Assembly: GCA_019637335.1 (NCBI GenBank)
Contig: JAHBVV010000002.1
Location: 62,001-126,000 of the forward strand
Source of the DNA: Candidatus Hydrogenedentota bacterium
GTDB lineage: Bacteria; Hydrogenedentota; Hydrogenedentia; Hydrogenedentales; JAEUWI01
Length of the DNA stretch: 64,000 bases
Direction: 5' to 3'
Made by a program: the position numbers and the translations under genes. The notes below the pieces were generated by a model. It was not told the origin of the DNA. It saw only the letters and a list, made by a program, of their open reading frames with translations, and ran no database searches. Shown here in pieces: positions 3,862 to 49,233 of this stretch (position 1 is the stretch's first letter; each line of letters starts with the position of its first letter).

Positions 3862-4947
3862 TCAGGCTTCGTCCAATGCGAGTCCCAGCGCCTCGATGAC
3901 GGGCGAATTGCTGGCATAGCGCGGCATGATAATTTCCAGGTCCTTATTGACAAACTGGCGCACGACGAACAGAACAGACGCGGGGTGTTCGTAGGCCAGC
4001 TCCTTAACGTATTGCCACCATTCGCCGTCGGGGATATCGCGCCCGAGCAGCAGCCGGGGTATGTCGGCGGGGTCTTCCTCCTGCTGGAGGGCCTTGATTT
4101 CCTCGGCGAGTCCGGCGGCCTGGCCGCGCTGGCTGGCCTCTTTCTGGAGGCGGGCGCCGATGGCGGCGACGAGGCGGCCGGCTTCCTTGTAGCGCTCCGC
4201 GAAGGCGTCCCATTCGGGATCGAGCTGGTTTACGAGCTCGACGAGGAACGCGAGGCGCACGTCCAGGGGGCGATCTTCGAGGCGTGCGGCGATCTGGGAG
4301 TTGAGTAGCAGGTAGCCCAGGGCGATGGCGACGTGGCGGTCCGGCGGTTGCAGGGCCACGGCATCTTCGGGGCGGCGGGGGTATTCCGCGTGGAGAATCT
4401 GGGCGCGGCTCTGGTAGTTCGGGGCGGCGGGCATGGGCTCTGGGAAGGCGGCGTAGTCGTAGTCGAGCCCGACGGCGACGCGGTAGCCCTGTACGGCCCG
4501 GGGGATGTCGTTGGCGTCGAGGGCGGCGTCGGCCTCTTCGAGGAAGGTCTGCTGCATGCGCGCCCGGATCCGGAGCAGCTCGTAGGCCTGCGCGGCGGCC
4601 TTGAATTTACCCAGCTGGACGGCGTTGTCCGCGAGACGCATCACGAGGCCGTACGGCAACTGGGGCGGGCCCTTTTTTTCGAGTTGTGCGCGCACATGGG
4701 CCTGTATTTCGGGGGTTTTCGCGAGGGCCAGGGCGTCCTCGAAACGCGGACCGCCATCGGAACCGGGGACGAGGTAGGCGTACTTGTCGGCGTTGATGTC
4801 TTCCGTCGACTCGGCCCGGAGGGGGGAGTAGGAGATGAAGAGGAAACGCAGGCTGACAATATCGCCTTCGGCGACCGCTTTGGCGAGGCAGCGGTCGATG
4901 GTTTCCTGGCTAACGGGTGCTTTCTGGATTTCCCTGGTGCGTGCCAT
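3862..4947 (-). CDS. Unknown helical protein co-transcribed with J-like protein
   Basis: 361 residues if translation starts at ATG 4947, which overlaps the upstream gene's stop in an ATGA arrangement. A longer open frame upstream is Arg/Pro-rich antisense-type sequence and is rejected. The protein is acidic and mostly helical, with alternating AAQAYELLRIR / ALDANDIPRAVQGYRVAV segments that resemble loose TPR units around residues 130-190. It has no signal peptide or catalytic motif I recognise. The tight coupling to the J-like gene suggests a shared complex. Confidence 0.6.
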   Translation of the reverse strand: MARTREIQKAPVSQETIDRCLAKAVAEGDIVSLRFLFISYSPLRAESTEDINADKYAYLVPGSDGGPRFEDALALAKTPEIQAHVRAQLEKKGPPQLPYGLVMRLADNAVQLGKFKAAAQAYELLRIRARMQQTFLEEADAALDANDIPRAVQGYRVAVGLDYDYAAFPEPMPAAPNYQSRAQILHAEYPRRPEDAVALQPPDRHVAIALGYLLLNSQIAARLEDRPLDVRLAFLVELVNQLDPEWDAFAERYKEAGRLVAAIGARLQKEASQRGQAAGLAEEIKALQQEEDPADIPRLLLGRDIPDGEWWQYVKELAYEHPASVLFVVRQFVNKDLEIIMPRYASNSPVIEALGLALDEA

Positions 4948-42179: not shown

Positions 42180-42926
42180 CTACGCCGTAAAGCCCCCGTC
42201 GATATCCAGCACCGTCCCCGTCACAAAGGACGCCTCCGGACTGGCCAGAAACAACACCCCCGCCGCGATCTCCTCGGGACGCCCGTAACGGCCCAGCGCG
42301 CTCACCGAACGCTGCGCAACCGCGCTCGGGCCGTCCGCCGGATTCATCTCCGTGTCCACCGATCCCGGCTGCAGCACATTGATCGTGATCCCGCGGGACG
42401 CCAGATCACGCGCCGCCCCCTTCGTGAACCCGACCACCGCCGCCTTGGTCGCCGCGTAGTCCGCCAGGCCCGGAAACGCCGCCCGGCTCGCCAGCGCCGA
42501 TCCGATCGTGATGATCCGGCCGCCCTCGCCCATGTGCAGCGCCGCCGCGCGGATCGCCGCCGTCACGCCGGTGTAGTTGATCGCCAACTGGCGGTCGAGC
42601 GCGTCCAGGTCAGTGCCCGGATCGCCCACCGCGCCCCCCAGGAACACGCCCGCATTGTTCACGAGAATGTCCAGCCGCCCGAAATGCGCCACGGCCGCCT
42701 CCACCAGCCCGACCGCCTGTTCGCGGTCCGCCAGGTCCGCCTGGAACGCCTTCGCGCGCACCCCGCCCGACGACAGCTCCGCCGCCAGCGCTTCCGCACG
42801 CTCCGCCGAACCGCCATAGCCCAGCGCCACATCCGCCCCGGCCCCCGCCAGCGCCCGCGCAATGGCCGCGCCAATCCCGCGCGACGCCCCGGTCACCAGC
42901 GCCACTTTTCCCGTCAGATTCGTCAT
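42180..42926 (-). CDS. Short-chain dehydrogenase/reductase (FabG-like)
   Basis: 248 residues, the full SDR length. NAD(P) motif TGASRGIG (12-19), structural LVNNAG (89-93), catalytic Ser 143, Tyr 157 and Lys 161 (YAATK), and the C-terminal PGSVDTEMN and FLASPEASFVTGTVLDIDGGF, all typical of 3-oxoacyl-ACP reductase-like enzymes. No fatty acid synthesis gene is adjacent, so a stand-alone alcohol dehydrogenase of unknown substrate is as likely. It lies 42 bp after wrbA on the same strand, possibly as a redox operon. Confidence 0.87.
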   Translation of the reverse strand: MTNLTGKVALVTGASRGIGAAIARALAGAGADVALGYGGSAERAEALAAELSSGGVRAKAFQADLADREQAVGLVEAAVAHFGRLDILVNNAGVFLGGAVGDPGTDLDALDRQLAINYTGVTAAIRAAALHMGEGGRIITIGSALASRAAFPGLADYAATKAAVVGFTKGAARDLASRGITINVLQPGSVDTEMNPADGPSAVAQRSVSALGRYGRPEEIAAGVLFLASPEASFVTGTVLDIDGGFTA

Positions 42927-42968: not shown

Positions 42969-43568
42969 TTAACCGTTGAGCCGCGCGGCAATCTCCGCGA
43001 CATGCCTGCCCTGGAAACGCGCCATGGCAAGCTCCTTCTCGCTCGGCTGCCGCGATCCGTCCCCGCCCGCGATCGTCGCCGCGCCCCACGGGCTGCCGCC
43101 CTTCACCTCGCTGATGTCCGCCAGCTCCGCGCACGCGTAGGGCAGGCCCACGTAAATCATCCCGTGGTGCATCAGCGTCGGTACAAACGTCATGATCGTC
43201 GACTCATTCCCGCCCCCCGTGCCTGTACTCGTGAACACACTGCCCACCTTGCCCACAAGCGCCCCCTTCGCCCAAAGCCCGCCCGTCTGATCCAGGAAAT
43301 TGCGCATCTGCGCCGCCATATTCCCGAAACGTGTGGGCGTCCCGAAGATAACCGCGTCGTACTCCGCAAGTTCCGGCGGCGCCGCCACCGGAGCGGACTG
43401 GTCCAGTTTCCCACCGTGCTTCTTCAACGTCTCCTCCGGAATCGTCTCCGGAACCCGCTTCACCGTCACCTCAACCCCCTCCACCGAGCGCGCCCCTTCC
43501 GCAACCGCCCCCGCCATCGTCTCAATATGACCATACATCGAATAATAAAGCACCAATACCTTCGTCAT
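42969..43568 (-). CDS. wrbA: NAD(P)H:quinone oxidoreductase, WrbA type
   Basis: 199 residues from ATG 43568, with an AGGAGGAG ribosome site upstream; the longer frame is rejected. Flavodoxin-like FMN site [14 protein letters not shown], then [45 protein letters not shown] and MIYVGLPYA, all characteristic of WrbA. The enzyme reduces quinones by two electrons, avoiding semiquinones. It precedes an SDR on the same strand. The intergenic DNA upstream contains one of the two direct repeats that flank the sigma-factor fusion gene. Confidence 0.92.
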
Positions 43569-43749
43569 TGCCAGATCTCCTCCTGGGTTGCCAATCTGCT
43601 GCCATCGCGACGCCGCGCCCTGCGGCGCCACCGCGACCCTCGATCTACATTCGCGCCACCGCGCACCGCGGTGTGCCATGAAATAAACTTACACGAAATT
43701 GATTTATATGTCAAGCAATAGCGCCCATCATACACAACCCGCCACGCAG

Positions 43750-43930
43750 GATTGCGGGCATTCCCGCGGCAACGGACGCCACCCGCCAACACAACCGCGA
43801 CCTTGACCGGCAACCAGGCGCAGCGCCCAACCCCCGTGCCACGCGATCGCGCTCCAGCGCGTTCGTGTGCCTGGACCAACACGGCCCCCACTTCCCGGAG
43901 AGCCACTCAAAACGAGCGGCTTCACACACT
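43750..43930 (+). repeat. Left flank repeat of sigma-fusion gene
   Basis: A shortened palindrome (GCGGGCATTCCCGC, 43754-43767) is followed at 43832-43925 by a 94-bp block starting CCCCGTGCCACGCGATCGCG. The 94-bp block recurs in the same orientation at 46959-47052 with about ten mismatches by eye. The two blocks bracket the sigma-factor fusion gene, this one 41 bp beyond its stop. No gene supported in the spacer. Confidence 0.75.
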
Positions 43931-43966
43931 CATCGGCACACAGCCCCAAACGACCACCTCCAAAAC

Positions 43967-46795
43967 TCACCTTTGCACCGTCAGATCAATCGCCACGTCT
44001 CCCGCATCAGTAACCTCAACAACATGCAGGTCATACCCCACATGGTGAACGAAATCATTCCCCCGGTGCGCGGTCGCCAGCACCGTGTACGTGCCCGGCC
44101 GGTGCAGCGGAAGCACATACGCGCCGCCATCGTCCGACATCGCCGTGGACGCCACAACGGGTTCCGCCAGACGGCGCGGCGCGGCCGCCAGGGCCTCCTC
44201 CAGGGACAACACGCCGTGCATCGCCAGCACCAGCACCCGCTCATCAGGGCCCAGCCCACGCACGGCCCCGCGCACCGCGTGGGGCATCGTCGCATCCACC
44301 GTCACACTGCTCACCTCGCCGGCCCGCAGCGGAATATCGTCCACAAATGCCCGCCAGAAATCTCCGGCCGTGAAGGCCGCCAGCTGCGCCACCCCGGCGG
44401 GGACGGAATCGAATCGAAAGGTTCCATCCGGGCCGGTAGAGCGCTGTAGAATCTCCCGGCCCAGAGGCGTCTCCACATACAGGCAAACGAGGGCTTCCGG
44501 GGCGATCGCCCCATCGACCACCACCACGCCCTCCACCACACACGCGCTCTCGGGAATATCCACACGGAGTGACTTCGCCTCTCCGGGCTGTAAATACAAG
44601 GCCTCGTGCCATGATCGCCCACGCGTTATCTCGACCGCAACAGTGATATCCCCGGGCGTGATCTCATCCAACACGGCGCGCCCGTTCGCATCCGTTTGCG
44701 CGCGGGTGTCGTTTCCGGCATAGAGCGCCTCGTAACACGTCGCCCGAACCGTCACGCCTTCCATCGGGGCCCCGCCCGAGACCACTTCGACGTCCAGCCG
44801 GGCGGACGGCTTGAGCACGATCACGGTGTTGTCCGAGGCCTTCCCGCTGCCCGGCGCAAAGGCCGGATGCCACGCATGGACGAGAATTGTGGTTGGCGGC
44901 GGATCATTCACGCGGAAAACGCCGTCCGCGTCCGTCACCGTAACGTGCTTTCCATCGCGGCGGCTTACATGCCCCAGGGCGTCGAGGTAGATGCGCGCCC
45001 CGCCGATGGGCGATCCGTCCGCGGTGAGGACCTGGCCGGAAAACCCCCGGTTCCGCGCTTCCTCCAGCGCGATTTCCACATCGTCCAACACCATACCCGC
45101 CTCCACCGTGACGTGGTGCAGCACGGGCTCGTATCCCGCCGAGCGGACCGCGATCGTAGCGTCGCCCGCCGGGATGTTCTCCATGCGAAAGCGGCCTTCG
45201 CGGTCATTGAAGCCGCTGTTGTCCCGAAATACGGACTCCCGGTAGTTTACGAGGTACCCCGGCCTGCAAACGGCGTCGAAACGCGTGATCGGCGACCCTG
45301 TTTTCGCATCGATGACCCGGCCCGCGACCGCCCCGCGCGCTTCCAGCACGATGCGAACGTCCTGATCGCCCCCGCGCGCATTAACGCCACCTCGGGTATA
45401 GGCGTCGTGCGTCGCATAGACGAACACTTCGCCCTCTGGTAGATACCGGAGCGCGAATCGCCCCTCCCGATCGGTGATCGCCGAACGCATGACCTCATCT
45501 TCGGTCGTAAGCAGAACGCCCTCAATCGGCTTTCCCGCCGCGTCAACCACCACGCCCGAGACCGTCAGTGATCCCTCCTGGCCATAAACCAGGCGAAGCC
45601 CGGTCTTTTGCTCCCCGGGCGCCAGGGATACCGACGCGACCTCGTTGCGCGCGCTGAAGGCCATGGTTTCAGGCTCGGTCACGAGAATTCGGTAGTCGCC
45701 GGGCCCCAGACCGGACTGCGAGAAACGCCCCGCATCGTCCGCCACGCAAAGTTGCGCTCGACTCGGCCCTCTCCGTACATCGAATCCGCTCGGATGCACG
45801 ATCCAGACGTGCGATCCGGCAAACGGGCGGCCATCGGGGAGCACAACAACACCGGACAGCGATGCGTGATCGTCCTGACTCGCCGCGAAGATGCCGGGTT
45901 CCGAATCCGGCGCAACCTCCGCTACCGCGGCGCGCGTGAGCCGTGGCGCTACCGCATCGCGGGACGGCGTTTCAGCGCCTGTAACCGGCGCTGCTTCCGC
46001 AATCGCCGCGGCGCGCGCCACCGACGCCGGCGCCACGTCCGAACCAGGTGCGCCCGCCCGCCAGGCTGCCCCGCCAATCACCACCGCCAGTACGGCTGCC
46101 GCAGCCACTTTCATACCCGCCCCACCCGCGTACGACGCCACGGTCGCCCAGACCGATGGGGTGGACGCAATCGCGATTCGTCCAATCTCCACCGCAAGCC
46201 CCGCGGGCTCGGCAACCGCGCTGTGGGATTGAATCAGCGTGGCGAGCGCCGCGCCCGCCGGCGCCACAACCCCCTTCTCGGACAGCCGACGCCGGACCAT
46301 CGTCACGCCCTGGTTTATGCGGTGCGTCACCGTCTGACGCGAGACCCCGAGGGACGCGGCGATGCTCTCGTGCGTTTGCGCCTCAAAGAAATGGCGCACC
46401 AGGGGTTCGCGGCAACTTTCCGGAAGGCCCGCCACGGCCTCGTCCACCAGCTCCCGGATTTCGTCCCACCCAACCCCCGTCGACTCCGGGAGGGTCTCGG
46501 CGTACGCCCGCTCACGCGCGCCCCGCCGCTTGCGCGATCGCGCATAATTGAGCGCCGCGCGATAGACCGTCCGGTGGAGCCATGCGGCCACATTGCGGCG
46601 CGGCGGGCGCCGGGTGTGCGCCAGGGCCAGCAGGCACTCCTGGGACACATCCTCGGCGTCCTCGGAATTCCGCAGCACGCGCAGCGCCGTGCCATAAACC
46701 ATCCGCGCATGGCGCGACGCCAACTCCCGGAACGCTTCCGCATTCCGGTGGCGGTGCCAATGGGCCAGCAAAGCCTGATCGTTCAAGTGCGTCAT
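43967..46795 (-). CDS. ECF sigma factor fused to exported carboxypeptidase-regulatory-like domains
   Basis: 942 residues from ATG 46795. Residues 8-85 are sigma-70 region 2 (HRNAEAFRELASRHARMVYGTALRVL, SEDAEDVSQECLLAL) and 112-172 region 4 (LPESCREPLVRHFFEAQTHESIAASLGVSRQTVTHRI). A single membrane helix (about 227-246, MKVAAAAVLAVVIGGAAW) follows. From about 310 to the end come some six or seven beta domains of the carboxypeptidase-regulatory/CnaB type (SGVVVLPDGRPFAGSHVWI, VSGVVVDAAGKPIEGVLL, VAGRVIDAKTGSPI, FSGQVLTADGSPIGGARI). The topology places sigma inside and the beta domains outside, so an anti-sigma may be unnecessary. No frameshift at the joints. Confidence 0.85.
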   Translation of the reverse strand: MTHLNDQALLAHWHRHRNAEAFRELASRHARMVYGTALRVLRNSEDAEDVSQECLLALAHTRRPPRRNVAAWLHRTVYRAALNYARSRKRRGARERAYAETLPESTGVGWDEIRELVDEAVAGLPESCREPLVRHFFEAQTHESIAASLGVSRQTVTHRINQGVTMVRRRLSEKGVVAPAGAALATLIQSHSAVAEPAGLAVEIGRIAIASTPSVWATVASYAGGAGMKVAAAAVLAVVIGGAAWRAGAPGSDVAPASVARAAAIAEAAPVTGAETPSRDAVAPRLTRAAVAEVAPDSEPGIFAASQDDHASLSGVVVLPDGRPFAGSHVWIVHPSGFDVRRGPSRAQLCVADDAGRFSQSGLGPGDYRILVTEPETMAFSARNEVASVSLAPGEQKTGLRLVYGQEGSLTVSGVVVDAAGKPIEGVLLTTEDEVMRSAITDREGRFALRYLPEGEVFVYATHDAYTRGGVNARGGDQDVRIVLEARGAVAGRVIDAKTGSPITRFDAVCRPGYLVNYRESVFRDNSGFNDREGRFRMENIPAGDATIAVRSAGYEPVLHHVTVEAGMVLDDVEIALEEARNRGFSGQVLTADGSPIGGARIYLDALGHVSRRDGKHVTVTDADGVFRVNDPPPTTILVHAWHPAFAPGSGKASDNTVIVLKPSARLDVEVVSGGAPMEGVTVRATCYEALYAGNDTRAQTDANGRAVLDEITPGDITVAVEITRGRSWHEALYLQPGEAKSLRVDIPESACVVEGVVVVDGAIAPEALVCLYVETPLGREILQRSTGPDGTFRFDSVPAGVAQLAAFTAGDFWRAFVDDIPLRAGEVSSVTVDATMPHAVRGAVRGLGPDERVLVLAMHGVLSLEEALAAAPRRLAEPVVASTAMSDDGGAYVLPLHRPGTYTVLATAHRGNDFVHHVGYDLHVVEVTDAGDVAIDLTVQR

Positions 46796-46885
46796 TTCGG
46801 TGTCCCCTGTCGTTGTTATACGTAAAGACACCGCCGCCCGCAAAATGGCCAATACCCACAAATGCCCCGCGCGCCAATTCAGGAT

Positions 46886-47052
46886 CGCGGGCATTCCTGC
46901 CCGCGGCAACAAACGCCCAAATCAGCGTCAAAACGCACCATGCTCAATCATCCCCAATCCCCGTGCCACGCGATCGCGCCCCAGCGCGTTCGTGTGCCTG
47001 GAGCAACACGGCCCCGACTTCCCGGAAAGCCACCTCATACGAGCGGTTCCAC
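46886..47052 (+). repeat. Right flank repeat of sigma-fusion gene with perfect palindrome
   Basis: CGCGGGCA-TTCC-TGCCCGCG (46886-46905) is a perfect eight-base-pair stem-loop. It is followed at 46959-47052 by the 94-bp block also found at 43832-43925. The repeat occupies the region 90-260 bp upstream of the sigma-fusion start codon, so it overlaps the likely promoter region. Confidence 0.78.
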
Positions 47053-47090
47053 AGTACCATCGCCATCCTGCCCACCACGCGCAAAACACA

Positions 47091-47153: not shown

Positions 47154-47972
47154 TTAGCCGCCGAGCAGCTGGAGCGCCGTCTGCGGGACGATGTTCGCCT
47201 GGGCCAACACCGTCGTTCCGGCGCTGACGAGGATCTGGTTCCGCGTGAAGTCCTGCGTCTCCAGCGCGATGTCCGCGTCGCGGATGGCGCTTTCCGAGGC
47301 CGCCGCGTTCTCCTCCTGAATGTTCAGGGTCGCGATGGTGAATTCGAGCCGGTTCTGGAGCGCGCCGAGCTGCGCCCGAAGGTTGTTGATGCTCTGCAGC
47401 GCGATGTCCACAATGCTCAGCGTGCCCACGGCCGTGCCCACCGAGGAAATGTTAATCGCGGAAACGCCCAGATCGTTCGATCGCGCGCCCGCCACCGTAA
47501 CGAGCAGGGTCTGGCCGGCTTGCGGGCCCGTCTGGAGCGTTATGGTCTGCGCGGAACTCAGCACGCCCACGCCGTTGAACTCGGTGTCCAGCGCGATGTC
47601 GTCGAGCTGGCCAAGCAGCTGCTGTACTTCCAAATCGAGCGACAGCCGGTTTTCGTCGCTGTTCGTGCCGTTCGCGGCCTGGATCGCAAGCTCGCGGATG
47701 CGCTGGAGTATGTTGGACGATTCCGTCAGCGCGCCTTCCGCCGTCTGCACGAGATTGATGCCGTCCTGCGCGTTGCGCGCGGCCACCCGCGTGCCCCGCA
47801 CCTGCGACCGAAAGCCTTCGGCGATCGCGAGGCCGGCCGCGTCGTCCGCCGCGCGGTTAATGCGCAGGCCGCTGGACAGGCGTTCGAGGGATTTGTTGAG
47901 GGCGAGGGTGTTCTTGCGCAGGATGCGACTCGTATTGATCGCGGCAACATTGGTATTGATTCTAAGACCCAT
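47154..47972 (-). CDS. fliC: Flagellin
   Basis: 272 residues from ATG 47972. The N-terminal D0/D1 domain (LRINTNVAAINTSRILRKNT, SLERLSSGLRINRAADDAAGLAIAE, NAQDGINLVQTAEGAL) and C-terminal D1/D0 domain (LGALQNRLEFTIATLNIQEENAAASESAIRDADIALE, ILVSAGTTVLAQAN) are complete. There is almost no variable D2/D3 region, giving a minimal flagellin. It forms the flagellar filament after export by the type III apparatus, none of which is in the window. Expression is probably from the sigma-28 promoter 88 bp upstream; a terminator follows. Confidence 0.95.
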   Translation of the reverse strand: MGLRINTNVAAINTSRILRKNTLALNKSLERLSSGLRINRAADDAAGLAIAEGFRSQVRGTRVAARNAQDGINLVQTAEGALTESSNILQRIRELAIQAANGTNSDENRLSLDLEVQQLLGQLDDIALDTEFNGVGVLSSAQTITLQTGPQAGQTLLVTVAGARSNDLGVSAINISSVGTAVGTLSIVDIALQSINNLRAQLGALQNRLEFTIATLNIQEENAAASESAIRDADIALETQDFTRNQILVSAGTTVLAQANIVPQTALQLLGG

Positions 47973-48059
47973 GACTTCTATCCTCCGTGACTGGGTTAAC
48001 CTTTGCATCCTTGCATCGGTTAAAGCCGGCGGCGTTGCCGCACCCGGCTTCATGGAAGA

Positions 48060-48087
48060 ATATCGGCACGGGGGGCCGCGGACTTTA
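48060..48087 (-). promoter_or_regulatory. Sigma-28 (FliA) promoter for flagellin
   Basis: On the minus strand TAAAG (48087-48083), exactly 15 bases, then GCCGATAT (48067-48060), against the known sigma-28 pattern TAAAG-N15-GCCGATAA. The -10 element is 88 bp upstream of the flagellin ATG, on the same strand. A GGAGG ribosome site sits close to the ATG. Confidence 0.85.
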
Positions 48088-48105
48088 GCAGTCCCGCCCG
48101 CCGGG

Positions 48106-49233
48106 CTACGCGTTCCCGCCCGGCGCCTCCAAAATCCGCGCGCGCAGCGCCAGGGCCTCGGCGTGACCGGGGTAGCGCTCAAGCACGTAATCCAGCTCCG
48201 CCAGCGCCGCCTCCCGCGCCCCCGTCGCGTTCAGGGCAATAGCGAGGTAGCGCCGTGTCTCCGGGTGCTCCGGCTCGCGCGCGGCCGCCGCCGCAAAGGC
48301 CTCGCGCGCGCCTGGCCAGTCTTCCTGTTGCGCCAGGGCGATGCCCAGGTTGCGCCAGACCTCCGCCGGCGCCGGGTCACGCGCGATCGAAAGCCGTAGC
48401 GCCTGGATCGCCTGGGGAACCCGCCCGCCCACGAGCAGCGCCGCCCCGAGATCGCGCAACCAGATGGGATTCTCCGGGTCGAGCCGCACCGCTTCCCGGT
48501 ACGACGTCAAGGCCGCGGCGAGATCCCCCAGATCGAGGTACTGATCCCCGAGTTCCTTATGGCATTTCGGATTGCCGGGCGCCGCCGCGAGTTTCTTCAA
48601 GCCCAGTTCCAGGTAGCGCCGCTGTTTCGCCGCCTGCTCCTCCGCGCTCCGATCCCGCTCGGGATAATGCAGCACCGCGATGCCCGATTCGCGGACCGGT
48701 ATGTTCAGGCGCCCCAGCGACGGCTCCACCAGCTCGTGCACTACCCCCTCAAAACAAACCCCTGGCTGGTTGGGAAAAAGCCGCACCTTGGCGCTCGGAA
48801 ACCACCCGGGATACCCGCCGCTCGCGGGATCCCCCGGCCGCACCGGCACAAAGCCGCTCGCGGATGTCGACGACGTGTAGTTGCGCGTGGTGAACCGGTA
48901 CGCGCAATCCGGCGGCCCCGAGGCCAGCCCCCCTAACGCCGCAAGATCCGCCGACCCGAAACGCTCGTCCGCGTCCAGGCTCAGGATCCACAGGCCCGAG
49001 CAGCGGTCCATGGCCGCGTTGCGCGCCGCGGCGAAATCGTCACCCCAGGGAATTTCATGCACAACAACCCCGCGCGCCCGCGCGATTGCGGCGGTGTCGT
49101 CGCTGGAACCCGTATCCGCCAGGACCAGCTCACAATCCAGGCCGTCCAGGGCCGAAAGGAATCCCGGCAGGCGCCGCGCCTCGTTCCGAACAATGACGGA
49201 CACCGACAGGCGGGGCGGGCGGGAACCAGACAC
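48106..49233 (-). CDS. Family 2 glycosyltransferase with C-terminal TPR repeats
   Basis: 375 residues. The N-terminal GT-A domain has SVSVIVRNEARRLPGFL, the nucleotide-binding VLADTGSSDDTAAIA and the DxD-type LSLDADER. From about residue 215, TPR units follow (HKELGDQYLDLGDLAAALTSYREAVRLDPENP, WRNLGIALAQQEDWPGAREAFAAAA). This GT2-TPR layout is common in enzymes glycosylating surface or peptide targets. Its position directly upstream of flagellin invites the guess that flagellin is the acceptor, but flagellin has its own promoter. It follows a 105-codon unknown gene by three bases. Confidence 0.82.
   Translation of the reverse strand: MSGSRPPRLSVSVIVRNEARRLPGFLSALDGLDCELVLADTGSSDDTAAIARARGVVVHEIPWGDDFAAARNAAMDRCSGLWILSLDADERFGSADLAALGGLASGPPDCAYRFTTRNYTSSTSASGFVPVRPGDPASGGYPGWFPSAKVRLFPNQPGVCFEGVVHELVEPSLGRLNIPVRESGIAVLHYPERDRSAEEQAAKQRRYLELGLKKLAAAPGNPKCHKELGDQYLDLGDLAAALTSYREAVRLDPENPIWLRDLGAALLVGGRVPQAIQALRLSIARDPAPAEVWRNLGIALAQQEDWPGAREAFAAAAAREPEHPETRRYLAIALNATGAREAALAELDYVLERYPGHAEALALRARILEAPGGNA

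Follow-up and report, generated by a model that had tools for sequence, protein, structure and literature searches.

Here we describe a 942-residue protein of Candidatus Hydrogenedentota in which an ECF sigma factor, a membrane helix and a rod of beta domains form one chain. Judged by sequence comparison, the tethered sigma factor is very probably functional and self-directed, driving its own gene, because a promoter motif is concentrated before the genes of its family and the bases of this motif covary with the expected sigma residues. We favor, at a probability of roughly 60%, the whole reading of one-protein transmembrane signaling, in which a tethered sensor-sigma would be released by cutting and would transcribe its own gene. 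A first-pass annotation of the window (the whole 64,000-nucleotide stretch of contig JAHBVV010000002.1 analyzed here) had pointed to the fused chain, missing that it is encoded on the minus strand, that it belongs to a whole paralogous family and that its promoter is self-directed.

One chain joins an ECF sigma factor to a beta-domain ectodomain

The gene and the parts of its product are located as follows:

43967..46795, minus strand: complete fused sigma factor gene, 942 aa, one uninterrupted frame from the ATG at 46795 to the stop at 43967-43969
46523..46723, minus strand: Sigma-70 region 2, residues 25-91, predicted reader of the -10 (Pfam PF04542; pLDDT >90; Foldseek matches to ECF sigma factors)
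46547..46549, minus strand: Asn83 codon, the residue whose covariation with -10 column 13 (T in this gene) is almost perfect
46307..46453, minus strand: Sigma-70 region 4, residues 115-163, predicted reader of the -35 (Pfam PF08281; pLDDT >90 over most of it)
46118..46270, minus strand: conserved juxtamembrane linker, residues 176-226 (conservation and AlphaFold2)
46055..46111, minus strand: single transmembrane helix, residues 229-247 (hydropathy and AlphaFold2)
45872..46048, minus strand: disordered stretch from membrane to ectodomain, residues 250-308 (pLDDT <50 over most of 241-306)
43970..45871, minus strand: ectodomain, residues 309-942, tandem transthyretin/CnaB/carboxypeptidase-regulatory-like beta sandwiches (Pfam, full-length model, Foldseek)

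The layout first proposed, one uninterrupted chain of sigma regions 2 and 4, one helix and about 630 residues of beta domains, is upheld by the reading frame, Pfam, hydropathy and AlphaFold2. Pfam places Sigma70_r2 at residues 25-91 (E-value 3e-12) and Sigma70_r4_2 at 115-163 (5e-8), with seven stretches of CarboxypepD_reg in the C-terminal two thirds (1.5e-51 over the whole protein). As in other ECF (group 4) sigma factors, sigma2 and sigma4 are the only sigma regions present and the fold is that of an ECF (Pfam, TIGR02937, Foldseek). Indeed, an AlphaFold2 model of residues 1-274, built with 96 relatives, is confident over both sigma regions, places a helix at 229-247 and leads Foldseek to SigE/SigL/AlgU/RpoE-type ECF sigma factors.

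The membrane helix, earlier and rightly set at residues 227-246, falls at 226-244 by hydropathy and at 229-247 by AlphaFold2. Two weaker hydropathy peaks, at 752 and 854, coincide with beta-rich parts of the full-length model, which makes one membrane helix the best interpretation. The sigma factor would then be cytoplasmic and the beta-domain rod would lie outside the inner membrane; as to the positive-inside rule, net charge alone is higher on the cytoplasmic side, Lys/Arg counts being no higher there. The linker between sigma4 and the helix (176-226) is predicted, at lower confidence, to form two helices (181-192 and 198-210), keeps P197 in more than 90% of family members, and holds zero cysteines and no zinc-finger or anti-sigma domain by sequence, Pfam and AlphaFold2. 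Packing of the linker on the sigma factor in an anti-sigma manner was not confidently predicted by AlphaFold2. Beyond a disordered stretch ending near residue 306, the full-length model shows mostly confident beta sandwiches to the C-terminus (309-942, about 630 aa), which Foldseek relates to pilins, adhesins and macroglobulin-type domains at low TM-scores that indicate a shared domain type only.

The fusion is conserved in a family with varied ectodomains

Five proteins of the same genome score above 300 bits against a profile of sigma, linker and helix and are clear members; a sixth reaches 91 bits and the rest, at 88 bits or below, consist mostly of ordinary ECFs about 200-270 aa long. The first search for relatives found matches to the fused protein in each of its 40 genomes, and the named records of relatives belong to Candidatus Hydrogenedentota, plus a few Planctomycetota, Phycisphaeraceae and Armatimonadota. 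At 1e-40, 24 of 149 Planctomycetota genomes match, with frames of at least 395 aa among the matches listed. Homologues with the same join, which the first-pass annotation had advised looking for, are plentiful: the loci fetched hold 126 distinct sigma-domain ORFs, 110 of them with a helix at 170-330 (90 complete, median 942 aa), and sigma2 and sigma4 are both present in all 50 fusions scanned. Sensor and sigma factor were held to be one molecule, and the conservation of the join in the family agrees; the fusion is neither an isolated oddity nor a gene-join artefact. The length and domain count that had been singled out for attention are, however, normal for the family (median 942 aa; CarboxypepD_reg in 31 of 50).

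Ten of the 126 ORFs are sigma-only; nine are low-scoring ordinary ECFs and the remaining one, L128, belongs to the family and carries one frameshift between sigma4 and linker (around 4450-4500), which may reflect a pseudogene, an assembly error or recoding. A frameshift at the join in relatives had been named as a point against the fusion, and L128 is one such case; it stands against 90 complete single-frame fusions. It is also what speaks for two separate products arising through an internal start, a frameshift or misassembly, an explanation that we hold to be extremely improbable given those 90 single-frame fusions, spread over many independently assembled genomes.

Ectodomains vary behind the same sigma-linker-helix. 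CarboxypepD_reg is found by Pfam in 31 of the 50 scanned fusions and PD40 (2/50) or HEAT repeats in others, while planctomycete relatives also carry PQQ/BamB-like and beta-helix ectodomains, some of them propeller-type. This variety suggests a conserved intracellular and membrane module with exchangeable outside parts. Three further loci of the same genome (L055, L056 and L057, on C30, C8 and C18) contain open frames, about 600-940 aa long, with similarity to the ectodomain and no sigma-domain match.

That there is no separate anti-sigma factor, as had been supposed, is borne out both within the chain and beside the family genes: among their first neighbors we found no conserved operon partner, anti-sigma gene or dedicated protease. 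The downstream neighbor lies on the same strand in 29 cases and on the opposite strand in 37, the neighbors look unrelated, and the sole recurrent one is another family member. At the locus itself, translations of the adjoining same-strand genes resemble a flagellin (47154-48182), a WrbA-like flavoprotein (42969-43679) and a short-chain dehydrogenase (42180-42926), with no link to the sigma gene found for any of these. An intergenic repeat of about 120-200 nt also flanks the gene on both sides (43740-43960 and 46953-47073, 84% alike); its 64 matches in the genome mark it as a dispersed repeat and rule it out as part of the system.

Most family genes carry a probable self-directed ECF-type promoter

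A bipartite ECF-type promoter motif, with a -35 of TTKNCCAAWT and a -10 of GGCGKYGTCWTT, precedes about 80% of family genes, a clear site being missing in about a fifth. Its elements at this gene are:

46843..46852, minus strand: -35 element, TTGGCCATTT (motif alignment, covariation)
46824..46836, minus strand: -10 element, CGGCGGTGTCTTT (motif alignment, covariation)
46816..46823, minus strand: downstream conserved block, ACGTATAA here and TAGA-like in the family, without sigma covariation

In the family upstream regions the motif reaches a log-likelihood of 444, against 92-101 in shuffles, and under a model without close relatives 77 of the 93 genes having a site exceed the random 95% level. 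At 14 bits or more, 54 matches lie before fusion genes and 26 elsewhere (17 in the reversed control), several of the 26 preceding other family members. Nine ordinary ECF genes have no such motif, which outside the family stays near background in the loci searched. Although the -35 block played no part in training the model, it shows conserved columns 16-17 nt upstream of the -10, and it is this second block that makes the layout that of an ECF promoter. The arrangement typical of ECF factors, a -35 with a -10 spaced by about 16 nt, commonly before the factor's own gene, is thereby found here at the level of motif and covariation. The TAGA-like block, family-wide, occupies promoter columns 24-27 (46816-46819 here), downstream of the -10.

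The -10 block of this gene (CGGCGGTGTCTTT) is unique in its genome, occurring only here; in G001, each of the two tandem orthologues is preceded by a version with one mismatch or none. A fixed-pattern search of the same genome at up to three mismatches gave, as second strong targets, just the own promoter of the C41 paralogue and one near-chance match. Elsewhere, two high-scoring motif matches before non-fusion ORFs (L073:6771 and L096:9427) are possible further targets.

The scarcity of such matches bears on a rather doubtful alternative, that the product is mainly a surface or adhesion protein and its sigma part a self-amplifying expression module without sensing, each gene being a self-sustaining on/off switch. 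The own promoter with no other strong genome site at up to three mismatches would suit such a role, as would solitary loci and pilin- or adhesin-like ectodomains that differ between members. However, the fixed pattern may have missed distant targets, and the alternative leaves unexplained why the sigma factor remains part of the chain, joined to a conserved linker and helix.

Promoter bases follow sigma residues

In partial Mantel tests, the -35 block follows sigma4.2 (p 0.001) and weakly sigma4.1 (p 0.04), and the -10 block follows only sigma2.3-2.4 (p 0.03), the correlations being small (0.14 for the -35 and 0.08 for the -10); sigma2.3-2.4 also shows a weak value with the spacer (p 0.03). 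Neither the linker nor the helix tracks either promoter block in these tests, and the TAGA-like block shows no covariation with sigma.

Single positions sharpen this picture. In a set of 63 genes less than 60% identical, the combinations sigma2.3-2.4/-10 and sigma4.2/-35 make up 8% of the residue-base pairs tested but supply all of the five highest-ranking pairs and nine of the ten highest; the first three beat all 500 shuffles. Residue 83 tracks -10 column 13 (Asp-C in 28/28, Asn-T in 18/21, Lys-G in 5/5), and residues 153, 154 and 158 covary with the -35. Further along the helix of residue 83, residue 86 pairs with column 12 and residue 90 with column 11, whereas column 16 is matched by residues 66 and 68; the pairs of residues 90 (p 0.006) and 66 (p 0.012) pass a strict max-null level that those of 86 and 68 fail. 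This arrangement agrees with the contacts of sigma-L, whose L3 loop reads the flipped master base and whose sigma2 C-terminal helix is suggested to read the bases just upstream (PMC6372665).

The tree requires no fewer than 15 changes of the Asn/Asp switch at residue 83. Across five supported independent Asn/Asp pairs, the base changed in step in an average of 4.9 and in no case the opposite way, five pairs being too few to reach 0.05 alone. Furthermore, one locus (L058, G001:C2:92000-110000) holds two tandem orthologues, one with N83 and T and the other with D83 and C at -10 column 13; the present protein (N83, T) differs from the D83 orthologue (C) exactly as the residue-83 code predicts.

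These results weigh heavily on the idea that the motif belongs to a housekeeping promoter or serves another regulator, with vestigial sigma domains. The sequence before this gene can be read as TTGCGG-N17-TATAAC, and the conservation of the TAGA-like block without covariation would fit as well. Nevertheless, the idea is contradicted by a base-residue covariation largely confined to the expected sigma-promoter contacts, and by a motif that is missing from the nine ordinary ECF genes and near background elsewhere; we regard it as highly improbable.

Relation to known membrane-fused ECF sigma factors

The principle is not new, since membrane-fused ECFs (ECF52/53, IutY) are already known, and C-terminally extended ECFs do occur in Planctomycetes, as the first-pass annotation had stated (PMC8999054). 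IutY of Pseudomonas putida (ECF243) likewise unites sigma factor and membrane regulatory part in one chain for single-protein signaling across the inner membrane; it has a fused anti-sigma factor and serves iron-starvation cell-surface signaling, whereas the present protein has no anti-sigma domain, no conserved neighbor and a carboxypeptidase-regulatory-like rod as ectodomain. Neither the fused anti-sigma factor nor the partner outer-membrane receptor of ECF243 was found by Pfam and the first-neighbor survey.

ECF52, ECF53 and ECF48 (SCO4117 of Streptomyces coelicolor) resemble it in joining an ECF sigma factor, a membrane helix and an outside extension, and in the positive autoregulation proposed for SCO4117. 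Unlike it, they are actinobacterial and place a zinc-finger anti-sigma domain before the helix; here the stretch between sigma4 and helix, without cysteine, yields two short helices and no zinc-finger by sequence, Pfam and AlphaFold2. ECF57 and other planctomycete C-terminally extended ECFs share large C-terminal extensions, and the planctomycete relatives have sigma, linker and helix in common with the fused protein, some with propeller-type domains. ECF57 proteins are described as carrying WD40-like repeats and as joining sigma2 to sigma4 through two conserved cysteines (PMC8999054), whereas the ectodomain here is of another fold, WD40-like repeats are not prevalent (CarboxypepD_reg 31/50, PD40 2/50) and the second cysteine is rare in the family. 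C54 is kept in 79% of 39 members and in at least 90% of 96, and position 128 is mostly Leu in the family (C128 here), ruling out the ECF57 cysteine pair as a family trait.

What sets the family apart from known fusions is the absence of an anti-sigma domain, its size, its exchangeable ectodomains and its private promoters. Our literature search found no description joining an ECF sigma factor with carboxypeptidase-regulatory-like domains, although an earlier one is possible, for example within the formal ECF classification; the papers found to name both Hydrogenedentes and sigma factor mention each term once only.

A proposed route from envelope to promoter

The fusion, its conservation, a functional sigma factor and its own promoter are all supported, and suggest the following mechanism. 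The ECF sigma domain would be held in the cytoplasm by the conserved linker and one membrane helix, with the beta-domain rod outside the inner membrane as the sensing or binding part. Engagement of the ectodomain or disturbance of the envelope would trigger cutting of the chain, most likely by a periplasmic cut and then an RseP-type site-2 protease; the freed sigma fragment would join RNA polymerase and fire its own -35/-10 promoter, giving positive feedback.

Membrane-bound transcription factors of the ToxR/CadC kind are known, and by analogy the uncut sigma factor might fire its own promoter at the membrane when ectodomain signals rearrange the linker. This is unlikely in our view, if a serious contender: the chain has no anti-sigma domain that would need removal, and the linker sequence, notably P197, is conserved as expected of a signal-transmitting element, but proteolysis is the presumed means of release for the membrane-fused ECFs characterized or proposed so far (PMC8999054, PMC5826349). 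Precedent makes regulated intramembrane proteolysis the most likely route: Prc and RseP free IutY (PMC8999054), proteolytic release is presumed for ECF52-type fusions as well, and the ECF52 member SCO4117 is believed to activate its own expression (PMC5826349). The same genome encodes an RseP-like M50 protease, as do 14 of 14 control genomes, M50 proteases being universal, so that its presence does not discriminate. Along with proteolytic release, we infer the topology, the signal and any targets beyond the own gene.

We tentatively raise a further proposal, doubtful as it stands, that the family members are mutually private, self-reinforcing receptor switches, with a near-deterministic residue-base code restricting each tethered sigma factor essentially to its own promoter. 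If so, several positive-feedback loops would run independently in the genome, each yielding chiefly the receptor or adhesin itself, and a cell could commit to one surface protein without cross-talk.

More generally, the family extends membrane-fused ECFs from a few characterized or proposed cases to a large, little-described family in uncultured phyla. Because most of its genes carry their own matching promoter, it offers many natural pairs for reading the sigma-promoter recognition code, and it is a source of candidate orthogonal sensor-switches.
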